Below are positions 5,052 through 62,677 of a stretch of 64,000 nucleotides of DNA, in pieces (within the stretch, counting starts at the first letter, position 1; every line of letters begins with the position of its first letter). The stretch comes from Longimicrobium sp. GTDB taxonomy: Bacteria > Gemmatimonadota > Gemmatimonadetes > Longimicrobiales > Longimicrobiaceae. Both the position numbers and the translations under genes were made by a program. The stretch lies in NCBI RefSeq assembly GCF_035474595.1, contig NZ_DATIND010000127.1, positions 1 to 64,000 of the forward strand, given 5' to 3'. The notes under the pieces were generated by a model that saw only the letters and a list, made by a program, of their open reading frames with translations, ran no database searches and was not told where the DNA came from.

Positions 5052-8000
5052 TCAGTGGTAGTCGTGCGAGGCGACTACGGCGGCCGCTTCGTCGAGCTTC
5101 AGGGCGTAGAACTGCTCGGCCTTCAGGTTGGTGACGCCGTCCTCCTTCCCCAGCTTGCCGCGCACGGCCAGGATGCCGTTGCCGTTGATGGTCTCGCGCT
5201 GCTCGGCGTAGACCCTGGGGTTCACGATCACGTCGATCCGCCCGGTCTCGTCCTCCAGCCCCACGAACACGAAGCCCTTGGCGGTCCCCGGGCGCTGGCG
5301 GACGATCACCACGCCGGCGGTGGTCACGCGCTCGCCGTGGGCCAGGCGCGGGTCGTCGCGCAGCTCGGCCAGGGTGCGCACCTCCATCGTCTCCAGCCAC
5401 GGGCGCAGGTGGCGCATGGGGTGGCCGTCCAGGTCGAAGCCGGTGGTGTGGTGCGCCATCAGCGTGCGCTCGCTGGGCGCCAGCGCGGGGATGCGCTCCT
5501 CGAACGCCACCCGCGCGGGCGCCAGCGGCCCGCCGCTGCGCCGCGCGCGCAGCTCGCCCAGCACCGTCCACAGCGCCTGCCGCGGCCCCTCGGGAATCCA
5601 GGTGCGGAACGCCCCCGCCGCCGCCAGCGCGCGCAGCCCCGGCTCGCTGTCGAAGCGCGTCACCACGTCCGCCGCCGAGGCGAACGCCCCGCGCTCCAGC
5701 TCCGCCTTCAGCCGCGCGCCGGTCACGGAGCCGAGGCCGCGGACGTATCTCAGCCCGATGCGCACGGCGGGCGGGGACGTGCGAGAGTGCGAAGGTGCGA
5801 GAGTGCGAGAGTGATCGCCATCGGCGCGGGCCGGCGCCCGTTCGCGCTCCGGGCCCGCGCACTCCCGCACTTCCGCACTCCCGCACTGTGGTTCACTTCC
5901 GCACTTCGGTTCACTCTCGCACTCTCGTACTCTCGCACTTTCGCACATCTCCTCCAGCGAGCAATCCCACCCGCTCCGCGCCAGATCCACCGGCATCACC
6001 ACCACTCCGTGCGCCTTCGCGTCGTGGATCAGCGTGGAGACGGGGTAGAAGCCCATCGGCTGGGCGTTCAGGATCGCGCACAGGTACTCGGCCGGGTAGT
6101 ACAGCCGCAGCCACGCGCTCGCGTACGCCAGCAGCGCAAAGGAGATGGCGTGGCTCTCGGGGAAGGTGTAGCTGGCGCACGCCTCCAGCCAGCCGAGCAC
6201 CTTCTCCGCCGCCTCGCTCGACACGCCGCGCTCCGCCATCCCCGCGCGGATGCGCTCCGTGGCCTTCAGCATCTCGGCCGAAGAGCGCTTCCGGCTCATC
6301 GCCCGGCGCAGCGCGTCGGCCTCGCCCGGGCTGCAGCCGCTGACCACGATGGCGCAGCGCATCAGCTGCTCCTGGAACAGCGCCAGCCCGTGCGTCCGCG
6401 CCAGCACCGGCTCCAGGTCGGGGTGCGGATACTCGGTCGGCACCCTGCCGCGCCGCCGCGCCAGCATCTCCTTCACCTGCCCGCCCAGCATGGGCCCCGG
6501 GCGGATGGCGCCCACGCTGATCACCACGTCGTAGAAGCAGGTGGGGCGGAGCCTCGGGAGGAAGTTGGCCTGCGCGCGGCTCTCGATCTGGAACAGCCCG
6601 ATGGTGTCGGCCGCGCCGATCTGGCGGTACACCGCGGGGTCGTCCAGCGGCAGCCGCCCGATGTCGATCTCCACCCCGCGCCAGCGGCGGATCAGCTGCA
6701 CGCACTCGCCCAGCAGGCGCAGCATCCCCAGCCCGAGAAGATCGAATTTCGGCAGACCGGCGTCCGCGCAGTCGTCCTTGTCCCACTGGATCACCGTGCG
6801 CGCGCTCATCGACGCGGGCTCGATGGGCACGACGGACGACAGCGGCTTCGCGGAGATGACGAAGCCGCCGCTGTGGATCCCCCGGTGGCGCGGGAGGCCG
6901 TCCAGCCCCGCGACGATGCGGACGAGGGCGCGCGCCCGCGGCTCCGCCGGATCGAGGCCGATCGCCTGCAGCGCCTTCCCCTCCGACATCTCCAGCCACT
7001 CCGCCGCGGTCTTCGCGGAGGTGTATCCGTCCACCCGCTTCGCCAGCCAGTCCGCCTGCGTGGCGGGGAAGCCGAGGACGCGCATGGCGTCGCGGATCGC
7101 CGATCGCCCGCGATACTCCACGTGCGTGCACACCATCGCCGCGTGCGCGCGCCCGTACTTCTCGTAGACGTACTGGAGCACGCGCTCGCGGGCGTCCATC
7201 GCGGCGAAGTCGATGTCGATGTCGGGCGGCTCCGGGCGCTCCAGCGAAAGGAAGCGCTCGAAGAGGAGCGAGTGGGCCACCGGATCGACCGCCGTCACCC
7301 GCAGGGCGTAGCAGACGATGGAGTTGGCCGCCGATCCGCGTCCCTGGCAGAGGATGCCCTGGTCGCGCGCGAAGCGGCAGATGTCCCAGCAGACCAGGAA
7401 GTGGTCGGCCAGCCCCAGCGTGCGGATGGTGCGCAGCTCGTGCTCCAGCTGCCGCCGGTGCGCGTCCGACGCGTCGGGGAGGCGCTCGGCCAGTCCCACG
7501 CGGGAGAGGCGCTCCAGGTACGCGTCCGCGCTGGACCACTGCGAGGGGAGCGGGAAGGCGGGGTGGACGGGGCCCACCTTCGCGAGGCGGAACCCCTGGC
7601 AGCGCTCGGCGATCTCCAGGGTGCGGCGGACGCCGCCCGGCTCCGCGCGCCACCGCCGCGCCATCTCCTCCGGCTTCTGCAGGCACCATTCGGCGGACGC
7701 GCGCAGGGCCCCGCGGCGGTGCGCCTGCTCCAGCGTCAGCTGCTGGGTGACGCAGGTGAGCGCGTCGTGCACCGCGCGCGCGTCGGGGGTGGCGTAGTGC
7801 ACGTCGTGCGTCACCGTCCACGGGATCTCCATCTCCCGCGCCAGGTCCAGCAGGTCGGCACCGAGCGCGGCCTCGGCGTGGGTGCGGTGGTCCCAGAGCT
7901 CGAGATAGAGCCGGTCTCCGAAGGCGTCGCGCCAGCGGCCCGCCTCCGCGCGCGCTTCGTCCCACCGCTCCGCCGCCAGCAGCCGGGGGATGCGGCCGCG

Positions 8001-8390
8001 CGGGCAGCCGGTCAGCGCGATGATTCCGGCAGCGTGCGAAGCGAGGTCGTCGAAGGAGATTCCCGGGGCGCCGCGGGGGCTGTCCATCCGCCCGCTAGTG
8101 AGCAGGGTGCACAGGTTCCCCCAGCCATCGGGGTTTTCCACAAGAAGGGTGGCGTGGGAGCCGTCCCGCAGCGTGATTTCCGCTCCCGAAATCGGAAAAA
8201 TTCCAGAGCTTTCGCACGCCTTGTGGAAGCGCACGGCGCCGCCCAGATCGTCGTGGTCGGTCAGCGCCAGCGCCCGGTAGCCGAGCTCGGCGGCGCGGGC
8301 GGCCAGCGACTCGGGCGTGGACGCGCCGTCACCCAGCGAAAACGCGCTGTGACAGTGCAGCTCCGCGTAAGTCCCTGATTCCATCGCCAT
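5052..8390 (-). CDS. dnaE2: Error-prone DNA polymerase DnaE2 (ImuC)
   Basis: 1112 aa C-family DNA polymerase of the mutagenic DnaE2/ImuC type, third gene of the imuA-imuB-dnaE2 cassette. The PHP domain starts at once (YAELHCHSAFSLGDGAS), followed by the polymerase core with PDIDIDFAAMDARERVLQYV carrying catalytic aspartates, then helix-hairpin-helix and OB-fold parts (GIVIVRQRPGTAKGFVFVGL). It performs translesion synthesis after DNA damage. Oddity: about 58 residues between SGWDCSLEE and VRIGLRYVRGLG are encoded by octamer repeats (5779-5946) and look like junk (RVRECESEPKCGSEP). The frame stays open, so the protein is probably still functional. Start ATG 8390; a second Met lies two codons on. 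Confidence 0.95.
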   Translation of the reverse strand: MAMESGTYAELHCHSAFSLGDGASTPESLAARAAELGYRALALTDHDDLGGAVRFHKACESSGIFPISGAEITLRDGSHATLLVENPDGWGNLCTLLTSGRMDSPRGAPGISFDDLASHAAGIIALTGCPRGRIPRLLAAERWDEARAEAGRWRDAFGDRLYLELWDHRTHAEAALGADLLDLAREMEIPWTVTHDVHYATPDARAVHDALTCVTQQLTLEQAHRRGALRASAEWCLQKPEEMARRWRAEPGGVRRTLEIAERCQGFRLAKVGPVHPAFPLPSQWSSADAYLERLSRVGLAERLPDASDAHRRQLEHELRTIRTLGLADHFLVCWDICRFARDQGILCQGRGSAANSIVCYALRVTAVDPVAHSLLFERFLSLERPEPPDIDIDFAAMDARERVLQYVYEKYGRAHAAMVCTHVEYRGRSAIRDAMRVLGFPATQADWLAKRVDGYTSAKTAAEWLEMSEGKALQAIGLDPAEPRARALVRIVAGLDGLPRHRGIHSGGFVISAKPLSSVVPIEPASMSARTVIQWDKDDCADAGLPKFDLLGLGMLRLLGECVQLIRRWRGVEIDIGRLPLDDPAVYRQIGAADTIGLFQIESRAQANFLPRLRPTCFYDVVISVGAIRPGPMLGGQVKEMLARRRGRVPTEYPHPDLEPVLARTHGLALFQEQLMRCAIVVSGCSPGEADALRRAMSRKRSSAEMLKATERIRAGMAERGVSSEAAEKVLGWLEACASYTFPESHAISFALLAYASAWLRLYYPAEYLCAILNAQPMGFYPVSTLIHDAKAHGVVVMPVDLARSGWDCSLEEMCESARVRECESEPKCGSEPQCGSAEVRECAGPERERAPARADGDHSRTLAPSHSRTSPPAVRIGLRYVRGLGSVTGARLKAELERGAFASAADVVTRFDSEPGLRALAAAGAFRTWIPEGPRQALWTVLGELRARRSGGPLAPARVAFEERIPALAPSERTLMAHHTTGFDLDGHPMRHLRPWLETMEVRTLAELRDDPRLAHGERVTTAGVVIVRQRPGTAKGFVFVGLEDETGRIDVIVNPRVYAEQRETINGNGILAVRGKLGKEDGVTNLKAEQFYALKLDEAAAVVASHDYH
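5779..5946. repeat. Octamer repeat pair inserted inside dnaE2
   Basis: The left arm (5779-5812) is made of gtgcgaga units; the right arm (5866-5946) is made of the complementary tctcgcac/cttccgcac units, separated by about 50 bases. The arms can fold into a long hairpin. The insertion keeps the dnaE2 frame open and sits in a poorly conserved linker just before the helix-hairpin-helix region. Confidence 0.85.
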
Positions 8391-8444
8391 TTAGCCGAAA
8401 TCCGCGCCCATTGCGCCGTGCCGCTGAAGTGCATCGGGTTGGTA

Positions 8445-9872
8445 TCAGTCGTACCACCCCTCCAGATACCACCCCCCCGATGCCGCGTCGCGGAAGAGCA
8501 GCCCCAGCCACCCGTCGGGCGACTCGACCCGCCAGTATTCCCGCGCGGTTCCGCCGCTCCACCATCCCCCCGAAATCCGCTCCGGCCCCTCGCAGCGAGT
8601 TTTCCACAGACCCGGTGGAAAACTCCCCTTGACAGACCCCGCGAAAAGCCCAAGTCGGCCTCCGTCCACGGCTTGGAGATCCACTCCCAGCGGGCGCCGC
8701 TCGGGGCCCTCGCGGACGCGGATCGCGCGGGGCTCGGGAAGGCGCCGCAGGCACAGGTCCAGGCACCCGCGCCCCAGCTGGGGGAGGTCGGGGACGGGGA
8801 GATCGGACCCGGGGGGATGGGCGGTGGTGAAGGCCGCGATCCCGCCGCTTCCGCGCGCGTCCCACGCCGCGTGCTCGCCGGGGAGATGCGCCCCGTGGCG
8901 CACCGCGCCGCTCAGCGCCCCCTCGCCCCAGCGCGCGAACACGGAGAGGAGCGCGGCGTGCAGCGCGCCGGGGTCGGGCGCCGGCGCGCGGAAGGCGTCC
9001 AGCTGGTCGGCCCGCGGCGCCGCGTCGCCGACCGCCTCGAGCCGGATGGCGGCGATGGGCCCGCCCGCCGGCGGCTCCTCGGCGGCGCGGCGGCAGAGGT
9101 CGGCCAGCACCCGCGCCTCGGCCGTGGGGCGCGCAGGGCGCACCTCGCGCGCGTCCTCGGTGCGGGTCGCGCCGTCGACGGTCAGCACCAGCCGGAGCCG
9201 CGCGGGAATGCGCTGGCGCTCGTCCAGCTGCCGGCAGACCGCGTCGATCAGCCCGGGAAGGACGAAGCGCAGCGGCTCGGTGGATTCGATCGCCGGCTCG
9301 AACTCGGCTTCCGCCGCGGGGATCTCGGGATCCGCCGGGCGGAAGGGCCAGCGCGGGTCGACGGCGCCGGCCAGCCGCCACGCCGCCAGCCCGGCCGAGC
9401 CGAAGCGCAGCTCCACGTCGGACGGCGACAATTCCGCGAGATGGCCGCAGGTGGCCACGCCCAGCAGCCCCAGCGTCTCGCGCAGGTCGGCGGGGATGGG
9501 AAGGAGGGCCAGCGAGCGGCGGCGGAGATAGCGCGCGTCGGCGCCGGCGGGGACCACGCGGTAGTCCGTCCCCCGCTCGCGGGTGGCCGCCGCCGCGGCG
9601 ATGCAGGTGGAGGCGATCCCCACACGCGCGTCGAAGCCGGCGCGGCGCGCGGCGGCCAGGAGCGCGCGCGCCACCGCCACGTCGCCGCCGCGGCGCTCCA
9701 TCCCGCACGCGTCGGCCCACAGCGCGCGCGGGTGCTCGCGCACGGGGGTCACGCGCGGGGCGGCGCGCAGCAGGGCGCCGGCCAGCGCGGCGCGCGCCTC
9801 AGCGCCGGGCGCCGGCTCGCCGGTCGGCGGCGCGGGAAGCCGTATGCAGGCGATTCGTCGGTTCGTGGACAA
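8445..9872 (-). CDS. imuB: ImuB, Y-family polymerase-like mutasome protein
   Basis: About 475 aa from a TTG at 9872; the upstream frame remains open but ImuB proteins begin close to the ACIRLP motif, here RIACIRLPAPP. The palm-like part (RALWADACGMERRGGD, then RVGIASTCIAAAAAT), the little-finger-like region and the C-terminal signature (REYWRVESPDGWLGLLFRD) follow in the right order. ImuB lacks polymerase activity in known systems and links DnaE2 to the beta clamp. The start overlaps the end of imuA by 74 bases, and dnaE2 follows 54 bases downstream. The exact start is uncertain. Confidence 0.85.
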   Translation of the reverse strand: MSTNRRIACIRLPAPPTGEPAPGAEARAALAGALLRAAPRVTPVREHPRALWADACGMERRGGDVAVARALLAAARRAGFDARVGIASTCIAAAAATRERGTDYRVVPAGADARYLRRRSLALLPIPADLRETLGLLGVATCGHLAELSPSDVELRFGSAGLAAWRLAGAVDPRWPFRPADPEIPAAEAEFEPAIESTEPLRFVLPGLIDAVCRQLDERQRIPARLRLVLTVDGATRTEDAREVRPARPTAEARVLADLCRRAAEEPPAGGPIAAIRLEAVGDAAPRADQLDAFRAPAPDPGALHAALLSVFARWGEGALSGAVRHGAHLPGEHAAWDARGSGGIAAFTTAHPPGSDLPVPDLPQLGRGCLDLCLRRLPEPRAIRVREGPERRPLGVDLQAVDGGRLGLFAGSVKGSFPPGLWKTRCEGPERISGGWWSGGTAREYWRVESPDGWLGLLFRDAASGGWYLEGWYD

Positions 9873-10545
9873 GCTCCACCTCGCGTTCCCCCGTGCGCGC
9901 GCTCGCGGACCGGGCCATCCGCACCCCCGAGCGCCGGCGGAAGCGCCCGCCCGTGCGCAGCCCCGTGCCCTCGCCCGCGCGGCGGAACTCCAGCCGCACG
10001 TCGGCGCGCCACCCGGGGTTTTCGTCCTCCGTCGACACCAGCAGCGCCGTGTCCGTCTCCCGCGCCAGCGCGCGGAGGCGGTGCGCCTCGGTGGGGTCGG
10101 GCGCGGGGCCGTCGAGGACCACGAGCCCGAAGGCGCCGGTGCGCACCAGCTGCTCGGCCACCCACGCGCCTTCCATCTCCCGGTCCGCCGTGGGGGGACG
10201 GGCCACCCACAGCCCCGGCGCGGAGTGCCCGTCCGGGCCGCACCACGCCGCGGGGTCCAGCGTGTGCGTGGCATCGACCAGGGCGACGAGGGTCTCGCGC
10301 GTGGCCGTCTCCACCAGCGCGCGCACGGCGGCGGTGCGCCCCGATGTCCCCTGGCCGCTCCACAGCGTGGCCGCGCCGCGGGGAACGCCGGCGGGAAGGA
10401 GCTGGTCCAGCGCGCGCACCCCCGTGCGGAACCCCGCGCGCTCCGGCGCCCCCTCCAGCCCGGGAAGCGGGCGGATGGCGGTGCCGAAGCGCTTTTCCAG
10501 CTCCACGCGAAGCTGGCTCAGGTCCCGGGCTGCGGCTGTGCTCAC
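9799..10545 (-). CDS. imuA: ImuA, RecA-like mutasome accessory protein
   Basis: 248 aa. The N-terminal lead (LSQLRVELEKRFG) and RTGVRALDQLLPAGVPRGAATLWSG match the ImuA/SulA-like RecA-fold family. The P-loop is degenerate (GQGTSGRT, Arg in place of Lys). Later LVVLDGP marks the Walker B strand. The C-terminal tail is Arg-rich. In other bacteria the ImuA-ImuB-DnaE2 set is induced by DNA damage and causes mutagenesis. This is the first gene of the minus-strand operon. The start has a GTG/ATG choice nearby and no textbook ribosome site. No confident LexA box was identified upstream. Confidence 0.85.
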   Translation of the reverse strand: MSTAAARDLSQLRVELEKRFGTAIRPLPGLEGAPERAGFRTGVRALDQLLPAGVPRGAATLWSGQGTSGRTAAVRALVETATRETLVALVDATHTLDPAAWCGPDGHSAPGLWVARPPTADREMEGAWVAEQLVRTGAFGLVVLDGPAPDPTEAHRLRALARETDTALLVSTEDENPGWRADVRLEFRRAGEGTGLRTGGRFRRRSGVRMARSASARTGEREVELVHEPTNRLHTASRAADRRAGARR

Positions 10546-10919: not shown

Positions 10920-10930
10920 AAAAAAAGGCC

Positions 10931-10992
10931 TCACGCGGAGACGCGGAGACGCGGAGGTGCATGAGCGGTCTCCTCCGCGTCTCCGCGTGAGA
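10931..10992. repeat. Palindromic repeat P1, copy 1
   Basis: Left arm tcacgcggagacgcggag followed by an extra gacgcggag copy; right arm ctccgcgtctccgcgtga ending at 10990. The two arms form a long stem. The same arms occur at 11304-11390 and 13165-13233. Confidence 0.8.
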
Positions 10993-11120
10993 TTGCCGTT
11001 GCCGGAGGCGCGGCGCGGACTCCGTCTCCAGATCGAATCACTTCTTTTCCGCTTCCGTGCGTGCTACGATGGGAGCGCTCCCGACGTGCACGCATCTACC
11101 CCAGAAACGAGAAGAGGACG

Positions 11121-11273
11121 ATGGAGAAGCGGATCAGGCTGGCCCTGGAGGAGCTCGCGGTAACGACGTTCGAAACCGAGTCCAAGGACGCGTTGCAGGC
11201 GCACGTCATCTCCGGCGCGTATCCCACCTGCAGGACGTGCCCGACCATCAACGGCACCTGCTGCACGCCCTGA
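11121..11273 (+). CDS. Lanthipeptide-like (pinensin-type) precursor peptide
   Basis: 50 aa with a strong ribosome site (GAAGAGG) before the ATG. The N-terminal half (IRLALEELAVTTFET) matches the leader pattern L-x-L-E-x-L-A-V-x-x-F-E-T seen in pinensin-family precursors; the C-terminal half (YPTCRTCPTINGTCCTP) is rich in Thr and has four Cys, suitable for lanthionine rings. It shares the leader with the 65-aa peptide at 61629. No dehydratase or cyclase gene is in the window, so modification would have to come from enzymes encoded elsewhere. The gene is bracketed by two P1 palindromes. The product class is inferred from sequence pattern only. Confidence 0.7.
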   Translation: MEKRIRLALEELAVTTFETESKDALQAHVISGAYPTCRTCPTINGTCCTP

Positions 11274-11303: not shown

Positions 11304-11390
11304 CTCACGCGGAGACGCGGAGACACGGAGAACTCACAGCATGTGCTGAGTTCTCTGCGTCTCCGCGTCTCCGCGTGAGATTGCTGTTCC
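11304..11390. repeat. Palindromic repeat P1, copy 2
   Basis: Left arm ctcacgcggagacgcggaga and right arm tctccgcgtctccgcgtgag form a long stem with a 20-30 base loop. It lies 30 bases after the precursor peptide and could serve as its transcription terminator. Confidence 0.8.
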
Positions 11391-11475: not shown

Positions 11476-13011
11476 TCAGCTCCCCGCTGCGGGGCGGTCG
11501 CGCAGGTTGCTCTTCCAGTAGCCGTACAGGAAGTAGAACACCAGCCCCACGACCAGCCAGATCACGAAGCGCTTCCAGGTGATCAGCGGCAGCTGGTACA
11601 TCAGGAAGCCGCACGACAGGATCGCCGCCGGGGCCACGAACCACACCGCCGGCGTGCGGAACGGCCGGTGGCGCTCCGGCTCGCGCAGGCGCAGCGCCAT
11701 CACCCCGACCGCCACCAGCACGAAGGCGAACAGGGTGCCGATGTTGGTGAGCTCGATCACCTCGTTGATGTTCGCGAACGCCGCGAAGAAGGCCACGAAC
11801 GCGCCCGTCAGGATGGTCGTCACGTGCGGCGTGCGGTACTTGGGGTGCAGCTTCGCGGCGAACGGCGGCAGCAGCCCGTCGCGCGCCATGGAGAAGAAGA
11901 TGCGCGGCTGCCCCATCTGGAACACCAGCAGCACCGAAGCCATGGCGATCACGGCGCCGAAGGAGATGATCCCCGCCGCCCAGTTGTAGCCGCGCTCGGT
12001 GAACGCCGCCGCCAGCGGGTCGGCGCTGCCGTGCGAGTTCCACGGCACCAGACCGGTCATCACCAGCGTCACCACGATGTAGATGATGGAGGTGGCGATC
12101 AGCGACAGGATCATCGCCTTCGGCATGTCGCGCTGCGGGTCCTTGGCCTCCTCGGCCGCCGTCGACACCGCGTCGAAGCCGATGTAGGCGAAGAAGATGA
12201 GCGCCGCGCCCGCGAACACGCCGTTCCAGCCGTTGGGCATGAACGGGTGCCAGTTGGCCGGCTTCACCCAGAACGAGCCCATGGCGATGAAGAAGAAGAG
12301 GATCGCCAGCTTCAGGATCACCATCACCGTGTTGGCCCACGCGCTCTCGCGGATGCCGATGACCAGGATCCAGGTGATCAGCGCCACGATCAGCACCGCC
12401 GGCAGGTTGATGATCACGGGAAAGCCCAGGATGTGCGGCGCCGTGGTCCACGCATGCGCGGCCTCGATCATCGTCGGATCCGTGCTCGGCGTCGCCGCGT
12501 GTACTGCCGTGAACCCCTGGAACGCCGTCCGCGGGTCGGTGGCCAGCCACGACGGCATGTGGATGCCGAACCCCGAGAGCAGCGTGGTGAAGTACGCCGA
12601 CCAGCTCACCGCCACGGCGATGTTCCCCACCGCGTACTCGATGATCAGGTCCCACCCGATGATCCAGGCGATCAGCTCGCCCAGCGTGGCGTACGCGTAG
12701 GTGTAGGCGCTCCCGGCCTGCGGGATCAGCGACGCGAACTCGGCGTAGCACAGCGCCGCGAAGCCGCAGGCGATGGCCACCAGCACGTACGACACCACCA
12801 GCCCGGGTCCGGCGCCGGGGTGGTTGGGCCCGCCCGACACGGCCGTGCCCGCGCCCGAGAAGATCCCCGCGCCGATGATGGCGCCGATCCCCAGCGCGGT
12901 GAGCTGCCAGACGCCCAGGGAGCGCCGCAGACCGTGCTCCACCTCCGTCTGCGGGTCCACGTGCTCGTCGCGGATCTCGCTGATGGGCTTCCTGCGGAAC
13001 AGTGCGTTCAT
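11476..13011 (-). CDS. APC-family amino-acid permease
   Basis: 511 aa integral membrane protein with about 12-14 helices. The first helix motif (GIGAIIGAGIFSGAGTAVSG) is the substrate-binding signature of the amino acid-polyamine-organocation family, and the EFASLIPQAGSAYTYAYATL segment matches cationic amino-acid transporter-like permeases (YfnA/CAT group). It is expected to import an amino acid with protons at the inner membrane. An extended cytoplasmic N-terminus (about 30 residues) precedes the first helix. It is a single-gene unit with its own terminator at 11415-11444 and a P1 palindrome upstream. Substrate not readable. Confidence 0.9.
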   Translation of the reverse strand: MNALFRRKPISEIRDEHVDPQTEVEHGLRRSLGVWQLTALGIGAIIGAGIFSGAGTAVSGGPNHPGAGPGLVVSYVLVAIACGFAALCYAEFASLIPQAGSAYTYAYATLGELIAWIIGWDLIIEYAVGNIAVAVSWSAYFTTLLSGFGIHMPSWLATDPRTAFQGFTAVHAATPSTDPTMIEAAHAWTTAPHILGFPVIINLPAVLIVALITWILVIGIRESAWANTVMVILKLAILFFFIAMGSFWVKPANWHPFMPNGWNGVFAGAALIFFAYIGFDAVSTAAEEAKDPQRDMPKAMILSLIATSIIYIVVTLVMTGLVPWNSHGSADPLAAAFTERGYNWAAGIISFGAVIAMASVLLVFQMGQPRIFFSMARDGLLPPFAAKLHPKYRTPHVTTILTGAFVAFFAAFANINEVIELTNIGTLFAFVLVAVGVMALRLREPERHRPFRTPAVWFVAPAAILSCGFLMYQLPLITWKRFVIWLVVGLVFYFLYGYWKSNLRDRPAAGS

Positions 13012-13164
13012 GGGCTGGATGGAGAAGGGGGCGGCGGGGGAGGGGACCCCCTGGATACCCGTGGCGGGCCCGGTGTGTTGCTGGGACGCCGCGAAACTAT
13101 GCGCCCCGCGAGCCCTCGCGCAACGGATTCGCGTTTCCGATCAAGGATTCGGCGAAAGATGCAT

Positions 13165-15238: not shown

Positions 15239-15652
15239 TCAGCTTCCGGCGCGCGGCACCAGCCCGATCACCTCCACGCCGGCGGCGCGCGTCGCGTCCA
15301 CCGCCGTCACCACGTCGCCGTAGGTCAGGTTCTCGCCGCCCTTCACGAACAGCACCTTCCGCGGCCGCCCGGCGAAGGTCCGCTCCACCGCGCTCTGCAG
15401 CCCCTCCGCGCCCACCGGCTGCGTGTTGATGGCGTAGCGGCCGCCGGGGAGCACCTCCAGCACGATCTGGCCGTCCGGCCGGCTCGGGGCGGCCGGGTCG
15501 GTCTTCGGCGGCGGGACCTGCACCGCCATCCCGCGCCGCAGCCCCTGCTGCACCACCATGAAGATGATCAGCAGCACCAGCAGCACGTCGATCATCGGCG
15601 TCACGTTGATCTCCGCCACCGCTCCGCCCCGCTTCGCCGCGGCCATGCCCAT
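15239..15652 (-). CDS. exbD: ExbD/TolR-family biopolymer transport protein (type B, second pair)
   Basis: 137 aa. One N-terminal membrane helix with the conserved proton-pathway aspartate in INVTPMIDVLLVLLIIFMVV, then VQQGLRRGMAVQVPPPK and a periplasmic domain ending VDATRAAGVEVIGLVPRAG. The VQQGL...QVPPPK form is shared with the gene at 16296, so both are type B. ExbD works with ExbB to use the proton gradient to energise TonB. It follows a type A exbD by 35 bases and may form a separate transcription unit, because a terminator lies at 16230. Confidence 0.92.
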   Translation of the reverse strand: MGMAAAKRGGAVAEINVTPMIDVLLVLLIIFMVVQQGLRRGMAVQVPPPKTDPAAPSRPDGQIVLEVLPGGRYAINTQPVGAEGLQSAVERTFAGRPRKVLFVKGGENLTYGDVVTAVDATRAAGVEVIGLVPRAGS

Positions 15653-15687
15653 GCGCGCCTCCCGCTTTCCGGTGGATGGTGACGCTC

Positions 15688-16128
15688 TCAGCGGCGCTCG
15701 TCGCGCCGCGGCATCTCGGTGATCGCCGCGACCCGGCGCACCCCCGCCGCCCGGGCCGCGTCCAGCGCCGTCAGCACGCTCCCGTACCCTACGTCGCGGT
15801 CCGCCTTCAGGTAGATGACGTGATCCTCGGGCGTGCGGGCGTAGATCTCCGCCAGCCGCGCCCGCAGCCGCCCCGGCGCCACCCGCTCCGTCCGCCCCGC
15901 GAAGTCGATGGCGAAGGCGCCGCGCGCGTCCACGAGCAGGGTGGGGTGCCTGTCGCGCTGGTACTCGGTGTGGCGGGCCCGGGGAAGCGCAGCGATGGAC
16001 ATCGCCGGCGTGACGACCATGAAGATGATGAGCAGCACCAGCATCACGTCGATCATCGGCGTGACGTTGATCTCAGCCGCGACCTCGAAGCTCGCCGCCG
16101 GAAGGGTGCCCCGCATGCGCGCCTCCAT
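15688..16128 (-). CDS. exbD: ExbD/TolR-family biopolymer transport protein (type A, second pair)
   Basis: 146 aa. The membrane helix has INVTPMIDVMLVLLIIFMVV followed by TPAMSIAALPRA, the form shared with the exbD at 16767 (type A). The periplasmic domain carries HVIYLKADRDVGYGSVLTAL and ends in DAARAAGVRRVAAITEMPRR, again closest to the 16767 gene. Taken with the type B gene downstream, this looks like a duplicate of the first exbD pair. The start ATG 16128 is 102 bases beyond the operon terminator, so it may have its own promoter. Confidence 0.92.
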   Translation of the reverse strand: MEARMRGTLPAASFEVAAEINVTPMIDVMLVLLIIFMVVTPAMSIAALPRARHTEYQRDRHPTLLVDARGAFAIDFAGRTERVAPGRLRARLAEIYARTPEDHVIYLKADRDVGYGSVLTALDAARAAGVRRVAAITEMPRRDERR

Positions 16129-16198
16129 CGTCCGCGGTTCCCGCCTGCCGCCTTTCCGGGGAAACGCGCCAGCCCCGGCGTTTCTGCCGCGCCGGCCT

Positions 16199-16226
16199 CC
16201 CTATCCCCTATCCCCTGTCCCCTGTG
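16199..16226. repeat. Heptamer repeat (CCCCTAT/CCCCTGT)
   Basis: Four tandem copies of a 7-bp unit, two as cccctat-type and two as cccctgt-type, just beyond the operon terminator. The same heptamer recurs at 38754-38783. Confidence 0.7.
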
Positions 16227-16229
16227 ACG

Positions 16230-16268
16230 AAAAAAGCGCCGGCCGCCCCGTGAGGGGACGGCCGGCGC
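16230..16268 (-). terminator. Intrinsic terminator of tonB-exbB-exbD-exbD
   Basis: On the minus strand, the stem gcgccggccgtcccc / ggggcggccggcgc with a 4-base loop is followed by six T residues. It lies 28 bases past the stop of the second exbD and divides the locus into two transcription units. Confidence 0.88.
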
Positions 16269-16295
16269 TGGACCGGATGGAGCCGCGTCAGGCGC

Positions 16296-16754
16296 TCAGG
16301 GAGCCGCGGGTGCGGCGGCCGGAGCCGTGGGGCCCACCTCGGGGCGTGGCACGAGACCCACGATCTCCACGCCGGCGGCGCGGCTGGCGTCCACCGCATG
16401 CACGATGTCGCCGTAGGTCATGTTCTCCGCGCCCTTCACGAAGATGATCTTGCGCGGCCGCTGCGCGTACAGGTCGCGCAGCGTGGACTCCAGCGCGTCG
16501 TAGGCCACCGGCTGCCGGTTGATGGCGTACGCCGGCCCGGGGTTCACCTCGAGCACGATCTGGTCCTCGGGGTTGGACTTCTGCGCCACCTCGTCCTTGT
16601 CCTTGGGCGGCGGCACCTGCATGGCCACGCCGCGCTGCAGCCCCTGCTGCACCACCATGAAGATGATGAGCAGCACCAGCAGCACGTCGATCATGGGCGT
16701 CACGTTGATGTCCGACGCCGGACCGCCCTTGTTCCCGCCAACTCCCATTGCCAT
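16296..16754 (-). CDS. exbD: ExbD/TolR-family biopolymer transport protein (type B, first pair)
   Basis: 152 aa. A Gly-rich N-terminus is followed by a membrane helix with INVTPMIDVLLVLLIIFMVV, then VQQGLQRGVAMQVPPPKDKD. The periplasmic domain contains KIIFVKGAENMTYGDIVHAV and ends VGLVPRPEVGPTAPAAAPAA with an Ala/Pro tail. It is a type B protein like the gene at 15239. It is the last gene before the operon terminator and starts 12 bases after the preceding exbD. Confidence 0.93.
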   Translation of the reverse strand: MAMGVGGNKGGPASDINVTPMIDVLLVLLIIFMVVQQGLQRGVAMQVPPPKDKDEVAQKSNPEDQIVLEVNPGPAYAINRQPVAYDALESTLRDLYAQRPRKIIFVKGAENMTYGDIVHAVDASRAAGVEIVGLVPRPEVGPTAPAAAPAAP

Positions 16755-16766
16755 CGGGCAGTCTCC

Positions 16767-17246
16767 TTATTCCTTGGCCTTGGCCTGGGGCAGCTCGGTG
16801 ATGGCGCCGATGCGGCGGACCCCCGCGATCCGGGCCGCGTCGATGGCGGTCAGCACCTTGTCGTAGCCGGCCTGGTTGTCGGCCTTCATGTACAGCACGT
16901 GATCGTCGGGACGCGAGGCGTACGCCTGCTTCAGCTGCTCGGAAAGCTGGTCGGGCGCCACCTTCTTGGTCTGCTTCCCTTCGATGTAGAAGTTCCCCTG
17001 GCGGTCGATGCCCAGCGTGACGCGCTTCTCCTTCTCGGGAGCGGCGGTCTTCGCCTTGGGGAGGATGGCCGTGTACCCCGCCAGCGACGGCACCGTGATC
17101 ATGAAGATGATCAGCAGCACCAGCATCACGTCGATCATGGGCGTGACGTTGATGTCGGCGTTCACGTCCGACTCCATCCCGGCAACCTTCGGCAGGGGAG
17201 AGCCGCCGAAGCTGGCGGCTCCGCCGAGGTGTCCTCCTCCGGCCAT
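16767..17246 (-). CDS. exbD: ExbD/TolR-family biopolymer transport protein (type A, first pair)
   Basis: 159 aa. A 25-residue Gly-rich cytoplasmic start precedes the membrane helix INVTPMIDVMLVLLIIFMIT with its key aspartate, then VPSLAGYTAILPKAKTA. The periplasmic part has HVLYMKADNQAGYDKVLTAI and ends in DAARIAGVRRIGAITELPQA. It begins 4 bases after the exbB stop, so it is co-translated. The two exbD types may give a hetero-oligomeric stator. Confidence 0.93.
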   Translation of the reverse strand: MAGGGHLGGAASFGGSPLPKVAGMESDVNADINVTPMIDVMLVLLIIFMITVPSLAGYTAILPKAKTAAPEKEKRVTLGIDRQGNFYIEGKQTKKVAPDQLSEQLKQAYASRPDDHVLYMKADNQAGYDKVLTAIDAARIAGVRRIGAITELPQAKAKE

Positions 17247-61826: not shown

Positions 61827-62051
61827 GACGGAAGGATGCACGCCGAGCGTCGCCACGCGCTCCCAGAGCCCCCGCTCCGGGAGCTTCGTCGTTCCGCCGG
61901 GTGGGTATCGGTTGCGGTCCGGCAGGAGGCTCTCGGGCTTGTCGACGACCGCGCCGCGAGCCGGGATCATCTTGCGCGCTCGCCTGTCACGCGGGTTCTC
62001 CGCCGCGATCCTGTTTGTTATGTTTTGGAGAACCCGCGCTGGAGTGTCGAG

Positions 62052-62270
62052 ATGAGCGAGACGATTCCCATTACCCTCTCCAACGAACTCGCTGCCGAAG
62101 TCGACGCGCTGTCCGAAGCCGACGGCATCCCGCGCGACGAGCTCGTCCGCAATGCCGTGGAAGCGTATGTCGCGGAGCGGAGGTTCGACGAATTGCGCGC
62201 CCGCGTCATCCCGCAGGCACAGAGGGCCGGGTTCTTCACGGACGAGGACGTGTTCCGCGAGATCTCGTGA
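62052..62270 (+). CDS. RHH-type antitoxin
   Basis: 72 aa from ATG 62052. A ribbon-helix-helix start (TIPITLSNELAAEVDALSEA, IPRDELVRNAVEAYVAERRF) and a short acidic tail (RAGFFTDEDVFREIS). It binds DNA as a dimer and neutralises the following PIN toxin. The stop overlaps the GTG start of the toxin (GTGA). The frame upstream to 61836 is not supported. Confidence 0.88.
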   Translation: MSETIPITLSNELAAEVDALSEADGIPRDELVRNAVEAYVAERRFDELRARVIPQAQRAGFFTDEDVFREIS

Positions 62271-62677
62271 GGCTCGTTCTCGATACGAACGTCCTCATCG
62301 CGGCTTATGCCACCGAGGGCGCCTGCATGCGGCTGTACAGATACTGCATGCGGCGCCACGTCCTCGTTACCTCCGAGATCCTCATCGAGGAGTTGCGGGA
62401 GAAGCTCCTTCGAAAGCTCAAGATCGCCTCTCCGGACGTTGACGATCTCCTCGGGTTCTATCGCGAACACTGCGAGATCGTTATGCCGCGGCCGCTGCAA
62501 TCTCCAGTTTCACGCGATCCTGACGACGATTGGGTGATCGCCACAGCGATAGCGGGCGAGTGCCGGTGCATCGTAAGCGGTGACGGCGATCTCCTCACGC
62601 TCGAGACCTACCAGGGCATCCGTATGATTCGCCCGGCCTCGTTTTGGGAGTTTGAAGCTGGTTCATCAGAGGTGTAG
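62267..62677 (+). CDS. PIN-domain toxin (COG1569 type)
   Basis: 136 aa from GTG 62267. The PIN fold has acidic residues in RLVLDTNVLIAAYATEGACM, TSEILIEELREKLLRKL, RDPDDDWVIATAIAGECRCI and VSGDGDLLTLETYQGIRMIR. The DxD motif near the C-terminus is typical of this subgroup, which differs from VapC by having the acidic DPDDD cluster. Translation is coupled to the antitoxin. It is probably an active RNase. Confidence 0.9.
   Translation: MRLVLDTNVLIAAYATEGACMRLYRYCMRRHVLVTSEILIEELREKLLRKLKIASPDVDDLLGFYREHCEIVMPRPLQSPVSRDPDDDWVIATAIAGECRCIVSGDGDLLTLETYQGIRMIRPASFWEFEAGSSEV

Follow-up and report, generated by a model that had tools for sequence, protein, structure and literature searches.

The small gene at positions 11121–11273 of the window, the 64,000-nt stretch of Longimicrobium sp. 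DNA analysed here, encodes in our estimate (probability of about 80%) a class I lanthipeptide precursor, one of at least 160 substrates with a leader that would be read in trans by enzymes, a split LanB and a LanC, whose genes lie elsewhere in the genome. In the mechanism that we propose, the leader would be recognised by a LanB divided into a glutamylating protein (LanB-N) and an eliminating protein (LanB-C), acting together with LanC. Thr and Ser residues of the core would be dehydrated and Cys residues added to them, giving up to four predicted thioether rings; the product would then be exported by a linked ABC/HlyD pair and trimmed by a linked S8 protease at a putative cleavage site. We infer that distant genes are expressed and modified in this way, and ring chemistry, cleavage, export and activity of the product are likewise predicted.

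The precursor gene and its leader family

The initial annotation described a 50-residue precursor with a Cys/Thr-rich core, and the sequence bears this out: an ATG-initiated reading frame with a ribosome-binding-site-like motif encodes the product MEKRIRLALEELAVTTFETESKDALQAHVISGAYPTCRTCPTINGTCCTP (Table 1). Its residues 1–36 are free of Cys and four Cys residues follow, fitting the Cys-free leader and Ser/Thr/Cys core of LanA precursors. The gene is solitary and outside any biosynthetic cluster, the usual but not strictly required location of a LanA gene.

Table 1. Features of the precursor gene and its surroundings in the window
Feature	Position	Strand	Remark
P1 palindrome 5' of precursor	10930–10991		129 nt before start; hairpin dispersed genome-wide
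Shine-Dalgarno-like GAGGA of precursor	11114–11118	+	read from sequence
Lanthipeptide-type precursor gene, 50 aa	11121–11273	+	leader = residues 1 to about 24, then Cys/Thr-rich core
Conserved leader MEKRIRLALEELAVTTFETE of precursor	11121–11180	+	family consensus MKKLxLxx[DE]xLxVESFxT
Core region HVISGAYPTCRTCPTINGTCCTP of precursor	11202–11270	+	4 Cys, 6 Thr/Ser; kept in three relatives
P1 palindrome 3' of precursor	11304–11379		30 nt past stop; between precursor and convergent APC permease gene
Third local P1	13165–13223		with neighbouring P1, brackets APC permease gene equally well
Second precursor of same leader family, 65 aa	61629–61826	+	GTV motif present; leader-profile match

A leader profile was made from 27 other sequences, with both window peptides and the closest homologue excluded, and was run on the window's 958 ORFs. 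The peptide scored 25.2 bits (E = 5.9e-7), and the second orphan gene about 50 kb away, which had been said to share its leader, indeed scored 39.9 bits (E = 1e-11). The best other ORF reached 6.5 bits, and nothing exceeded 6.5 bits among the reversed ORFs used as a control. Searches of Pfam and NCBIfam with the peptide gave no match, and its score is below the curated cut-off (24 bits) of the NF038180 pinensin leader model. It contains neither a GG motif nor the GT[VIM] motif after the leader, the latter being present as GTV in its homologue from genome G008. A protein-mode search of a phage collection returned a sole match at chance level (E = 9).

Full-length homologues that include the core were found in three genomes, G008 (57%), G009 (51%) and G014 (48%, another genus), so that the peptide is conserved in relatives, as had been asked of it. 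The core pattern, C.T.PTI.G[TS]CCTP-like, is shared by these relatives of two genera, and its conservation between species and genera argues for function; composition inflates the E-values between such Cys-rich cores, which served only as a qualitative guide. When 298 genomes of the phylum were searched with a profile, the window peptide scored 104 bits, the G009 and G014 homologues 98 bits and the next match 30 bits, among listed matches that did not include G008 and with scores that are non-independent, as the scored sequences are in the profile. The distance in score from every other member nevertheless sets these sequences apart as a discrete subfamily with one copy per genome. A chance ORF in an intergenic region would be conceivable for a short frame in 71% GC DNA that Pfam and NCBIfam do not recognise; the leave-out score stands against it, its probability is negligible, and it is excluded in practice because homologues exist. 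The window gene is real.

The leader belongs to a large family. A profile of 30 leaders (A1) was run on the whole draft genome (6.57 Mb in 163 contigs, 4% estimated contamination) and gave at least 150 matches, with E from 1.9e-16 up to 2.2e-7 among the matches listed. The neighbourhoods of these matches, about 800 kb, were rescanned, so the gene counts are lower bounds; they contained 168 family ORFs at 20 bits or more, 163 of them at 25 bits or more, across 56 contigs. Linkage within 2 kb yielded 90 groups, of which 59 hold a single gene and the largest holds nine; the full range for solitary genes is 59–67. Conserved leader columns carry 2–4 bits and core columns about 0.5 bits, and Cys makes up 0.1% of leader residues versus 14.5% of core residues; the median core has 46 residues with six Cys. 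An SD-like motif precedes 152 of 167 family genes, and the GT[VIM] motif, common but not universal, follows the leader in 155 of 168 members. The NF038180 leader_pinensin model recognised many paralogues of the window peptide, which links the family to the pinensin type. Thus, the proposal of a pinensin-like leader with further genes elsewhere was borne out by at least 160 genes genome-wide. No 8-mer that could serve as a shared upstream regulatory motif was clearly enriched at 66 isolated precursors relative to random neighbouring DNA.

Split LanB and LanC genes and their link to the leader

Lanthipeptide enzymes were sought genome-wide, as the initial annotation had suggested, and a class I set of split LanB and LanC is present. 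PF04738 and PF14028, the LanB elimination domain, were found in split form on contigs C4 and C23, the only PF14028 gene of the genome being on C23. The C23 locus comprises genes for LanB-C (Lant_dehydr_C, E = 1e-41) and LanC (LANC_like, PF05147, E = 2e-57), the 3' part of a LanB-N gene, an ABC exporter, an HlyD protein, an S8 protease and five precursors, the only family members that adjoin the class I enzymes. LanC retains WCHGAPG (C334) and LCHG (C381/H382), which correspond to zinc-site motifs in NisC and LANCL1; LanB-C retains FFIRYSxxGPHVRLRL and HMMNNR, aligned with NisB; and LanB-N has a relative of known structure, a lantibiotic-dehydratase-domain protein (6ec7). At the end of C4, an M20 peptidase gene is followed by another LanB-N, represented by its 5' 802 codons, and the two LanB-N fragments are 76% identical in amino acids over their overlap. 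Contig ends interrupt the class I locus, which in the complete genome is either a single locus that was assembled in variant forms or a duplicated one. In the relative G008, a single contig (C103) carries the order M20 peptidase-like, LanB-N (1075 aa), LanB-C, LanC and precursors. Upstream of LanB-N on C4 (L118, 919–5406) are genes that read as APS kinase-like, Sat-like, sulfite reductase-like and PAPS reductase-like; this placement of apparent sulfate assimilation and cysteine supply genes is possibly a coincidence.

Among the 21 family genomes, all of which were searched, the leader profile and PF14028 occurred in exactly the same ten, a coincidence with a probability of 2.8e-6 if the genomes are treated as independent and phylogeny is uncorrected. 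Leader copies per genome were 1 (G006), 5, 11, 16, 46, 61, 76, 141 and, in both the window genome (G000) and G008, at least 150. Three genomes of the same genus without LanB had zero leader peptides. A scan of named genomes also found LanB-C in a Gemmatimonadetes MAG and, at 35–38% identity, in four Thermoanaerobaculia/Acidobacteriota MAGs, three of which had a leader-family peptide near LanB-C. The order in one Acidobacteriota MAG (L243) is LanB-N, LanB-C, leader peptide, LanC-like, ABC and S8-like, the last three read from translations; position thus ties the leader to split LanB/LanC, in addition to co-occurrence. One precursor each was seen at the enzyme loci of these three MAGs (L240, L242 and L243), which suggests that the expansion in the window's family came after a cluster-type ancestry or a transfer.

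The claim that scattered precursors are served by one enzyme set elsewhere is therefore well supported: at least 163 genes on 56 contigs face one class I locus, the leader and LanB-C share the same ten genomes, and in an Acidobacteriota MAG a leader peptide stands between LanB-C and LanC. Modification itself we infer. Two other explanations were weighed against this one. The precursors could be substrates of class II LanMs, or of another modifying system, instead of LanB/LanC. The genome does contain two LanM genes (DUF4135 plus LANC_like, on C25 and C136), together with a weak further LanC-like match on C87. The LanM on C136 (L120, 297–4231), however, has two near-identical adjacent precursors of its own, with a different, GG-type leader, whereas the leader family tracks LanB-C exactly over the 21 genomes and its peptides occur inside LanB/LanC loci. 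We consider the LanM explanation very unlikely. The other explanation, which we regard as unlikely, is that the solitary genes give rise to Cys-rich peptides that stay unmodified, or are relics in decay whose leader was kept by descent. Hypervariable cores and the small number of family genes in a biosynthetic cluster would agree with decay, but the ATG, SD-like site and stop are intact in nearly all members, the leader is strongly conserved though the cores differ, core homologues are kept across species and genera, and the same-genus genomes without LanB are also without the leader. Trans-acting LanB/LanC with dispersed substrates is the reading that we prefer.

P1 palindromes around the precursor

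P1 palindromes do flank the gene on both sides, as had been reported. The 5' and 3' hairpins fold far better than shuffled sequences (z = -6.3 and -12.4, respectively). P1 is a long palindrome with the arm CTCACGCGGAGACGCGGAG, and its flanks often extend as ATCGCTGGATCTCACG / CGTGAGATCCAGCGA. The arm had 379 matches in the genome at two or fewer mismatches, versus 0–1 for a backward control pattern, and P1 is mostly intergenic and mostly 3' of genes. It may be a REP-like element, a transcript-end structure or a MITE.

The further idea, that precursors moved as repeat-flanked cassettes, did not hold up. A mobile cassette, with the precursor mobilised by the P1 palindrome on either side, would accord with the position of the gene between hairpins 312 nt apart and with the unrelated loci that the core homologues occupy in relatives. 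The APC permease operon is kept in G005 and G006 (80% identity), where the DNA downstream of it is unrelated and contains no precursor. P1 is also slightly denser near precursors (60 observed versus 44 expected, Poisson p = 0.014), an excess that probably reflects intergenic content, precursors being intergenic too. Against mobilisation, P1 is dispersed genome-wide and lies within 50 nt downstream of 8 of 168 precursors versus 11 of 298 ordinary genes; it occurs on both sides within 300 nt at only 3 of 168 precursors, versus 3 of 298 ordinary genes. No P1-like palindromes were found around the core homologues of G008, G009 and G014, and with the third local P1 the APC permease gene is as well bracketed as the precursor. 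We therefore regard a mobile cassette as most unlikely.

Three other gene groups were noted in the window. Minus-strand genes that resemble a DnaE2/ImuB/ImuA mutagenesis cassette from their translations (5052–10545) lie just upstream of the precursor. Four ExbD/TolR-like genes with an INVTPMIDV motif stand in a row at 15239–17177, and similar rows occur in relatives. A probable antitoxin-PIN toxin pair (61970–62677; translations MSETIPITLSNELAAEVDAL... and VRLVLDTNVLIAAYATEG...) adjoins the second orphan.

Relation to known lanthipeptide systems

Previous studies have described prochlorosins and synechococsins, in which a conserved leader, diverse cores and scattered precursor genes go with one tolerant enzyme (PMC10783134), with up to 79 SyncA precursors in one SyncM strain (PMC9872173). 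The present system resembles these products of ProcM and SyncM from marine picocyanobacteria in its shared leader, varied cores, genomic scatter and single, presumably tolerant, enzyme set. It differs in that they use class II LanM and a Nif11-type leader ending in GG, whereas here a class I split LanB and LanC go with a pinensin-like leader, and the number of precursors is at least twice theirs. The window peptide does not group with prochlorosins: its leader tracks LanB-C and not LanM, it has no GG, and no Pfam model matched.

Pinensin biosynthesis in Chitinophaga pinensis also uses a split LanB (PMC7268733), and the pinensin leader model (NF038180) is the one that matches many paralogues here. 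Pinensin-like gene clusters, however, have been described as individual clusters from a few Bacteroidetes (PMC9248904), while here the precursors are spread over some 90 sites, and the score of the window peptide lies below the NF038180 cut-off. The nisin-type class I system (NisB/NisC) has in common the LanB glutamylation and elimination domains, the zinc-site motifs of LanC, the ABC exporter and the S8 protease; it differs in that here LanB is on two polypeptides and the substrates are mostly far from the enzymes. For Longimicrobium, the literature yielded just numbers of predicted regions: the genome announcement of Longimicrobium terrae lists three lanthipeptide regions (PMC7291104). In open-access papers we found no description of this precursor family or of a class I system on such a scale.

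That a single tolerant enzyme can serve scattered precursors is thus already known from class II, and by comparison with these reports a class I version with more than 160 precursors would be new. It is fairly probable that a single (or duplicated) split-LanB/LanC machine modifies most of the at least 160 dispersed precursors, which would make this the largest such system known to us and the first of class I at this scale. If so, the dispersed substrates of a single class I enzyme set would number at least 160, double the 79 reported for SyncM, and natural combinatorial biosynthesis would reach beyond class II into class I lanthipeptides and into the Gemmatimonadota. Seen as part of a system that spans the genome, the gene is of more interest than as a lone orphan; seen as a mobile cassette, it is of less. 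A library with a shared leader and variable cores would offer a direct test of the core diversity that a tRNA-dependent LanB tolerates, and also of the purpose of such peptide repertoires, a question that stands equally for prochlorosins. The expansion is traceable, with closely related genomes holding 0, 1, 11, 76 and at least 141 copies, and most of these genes would escape cluster-based genome mining.

Some family members have a multi-core layout. At G000:C97:5695-5916 (L105) and in L232 from position 1906, a precursor carries its core unit, MKTYEPGCTTPDLCP, in duplicate, and this form is kept in two genomes; tandem core repeats were also seen at G000:C119:9534-9821 and 12876-13160.
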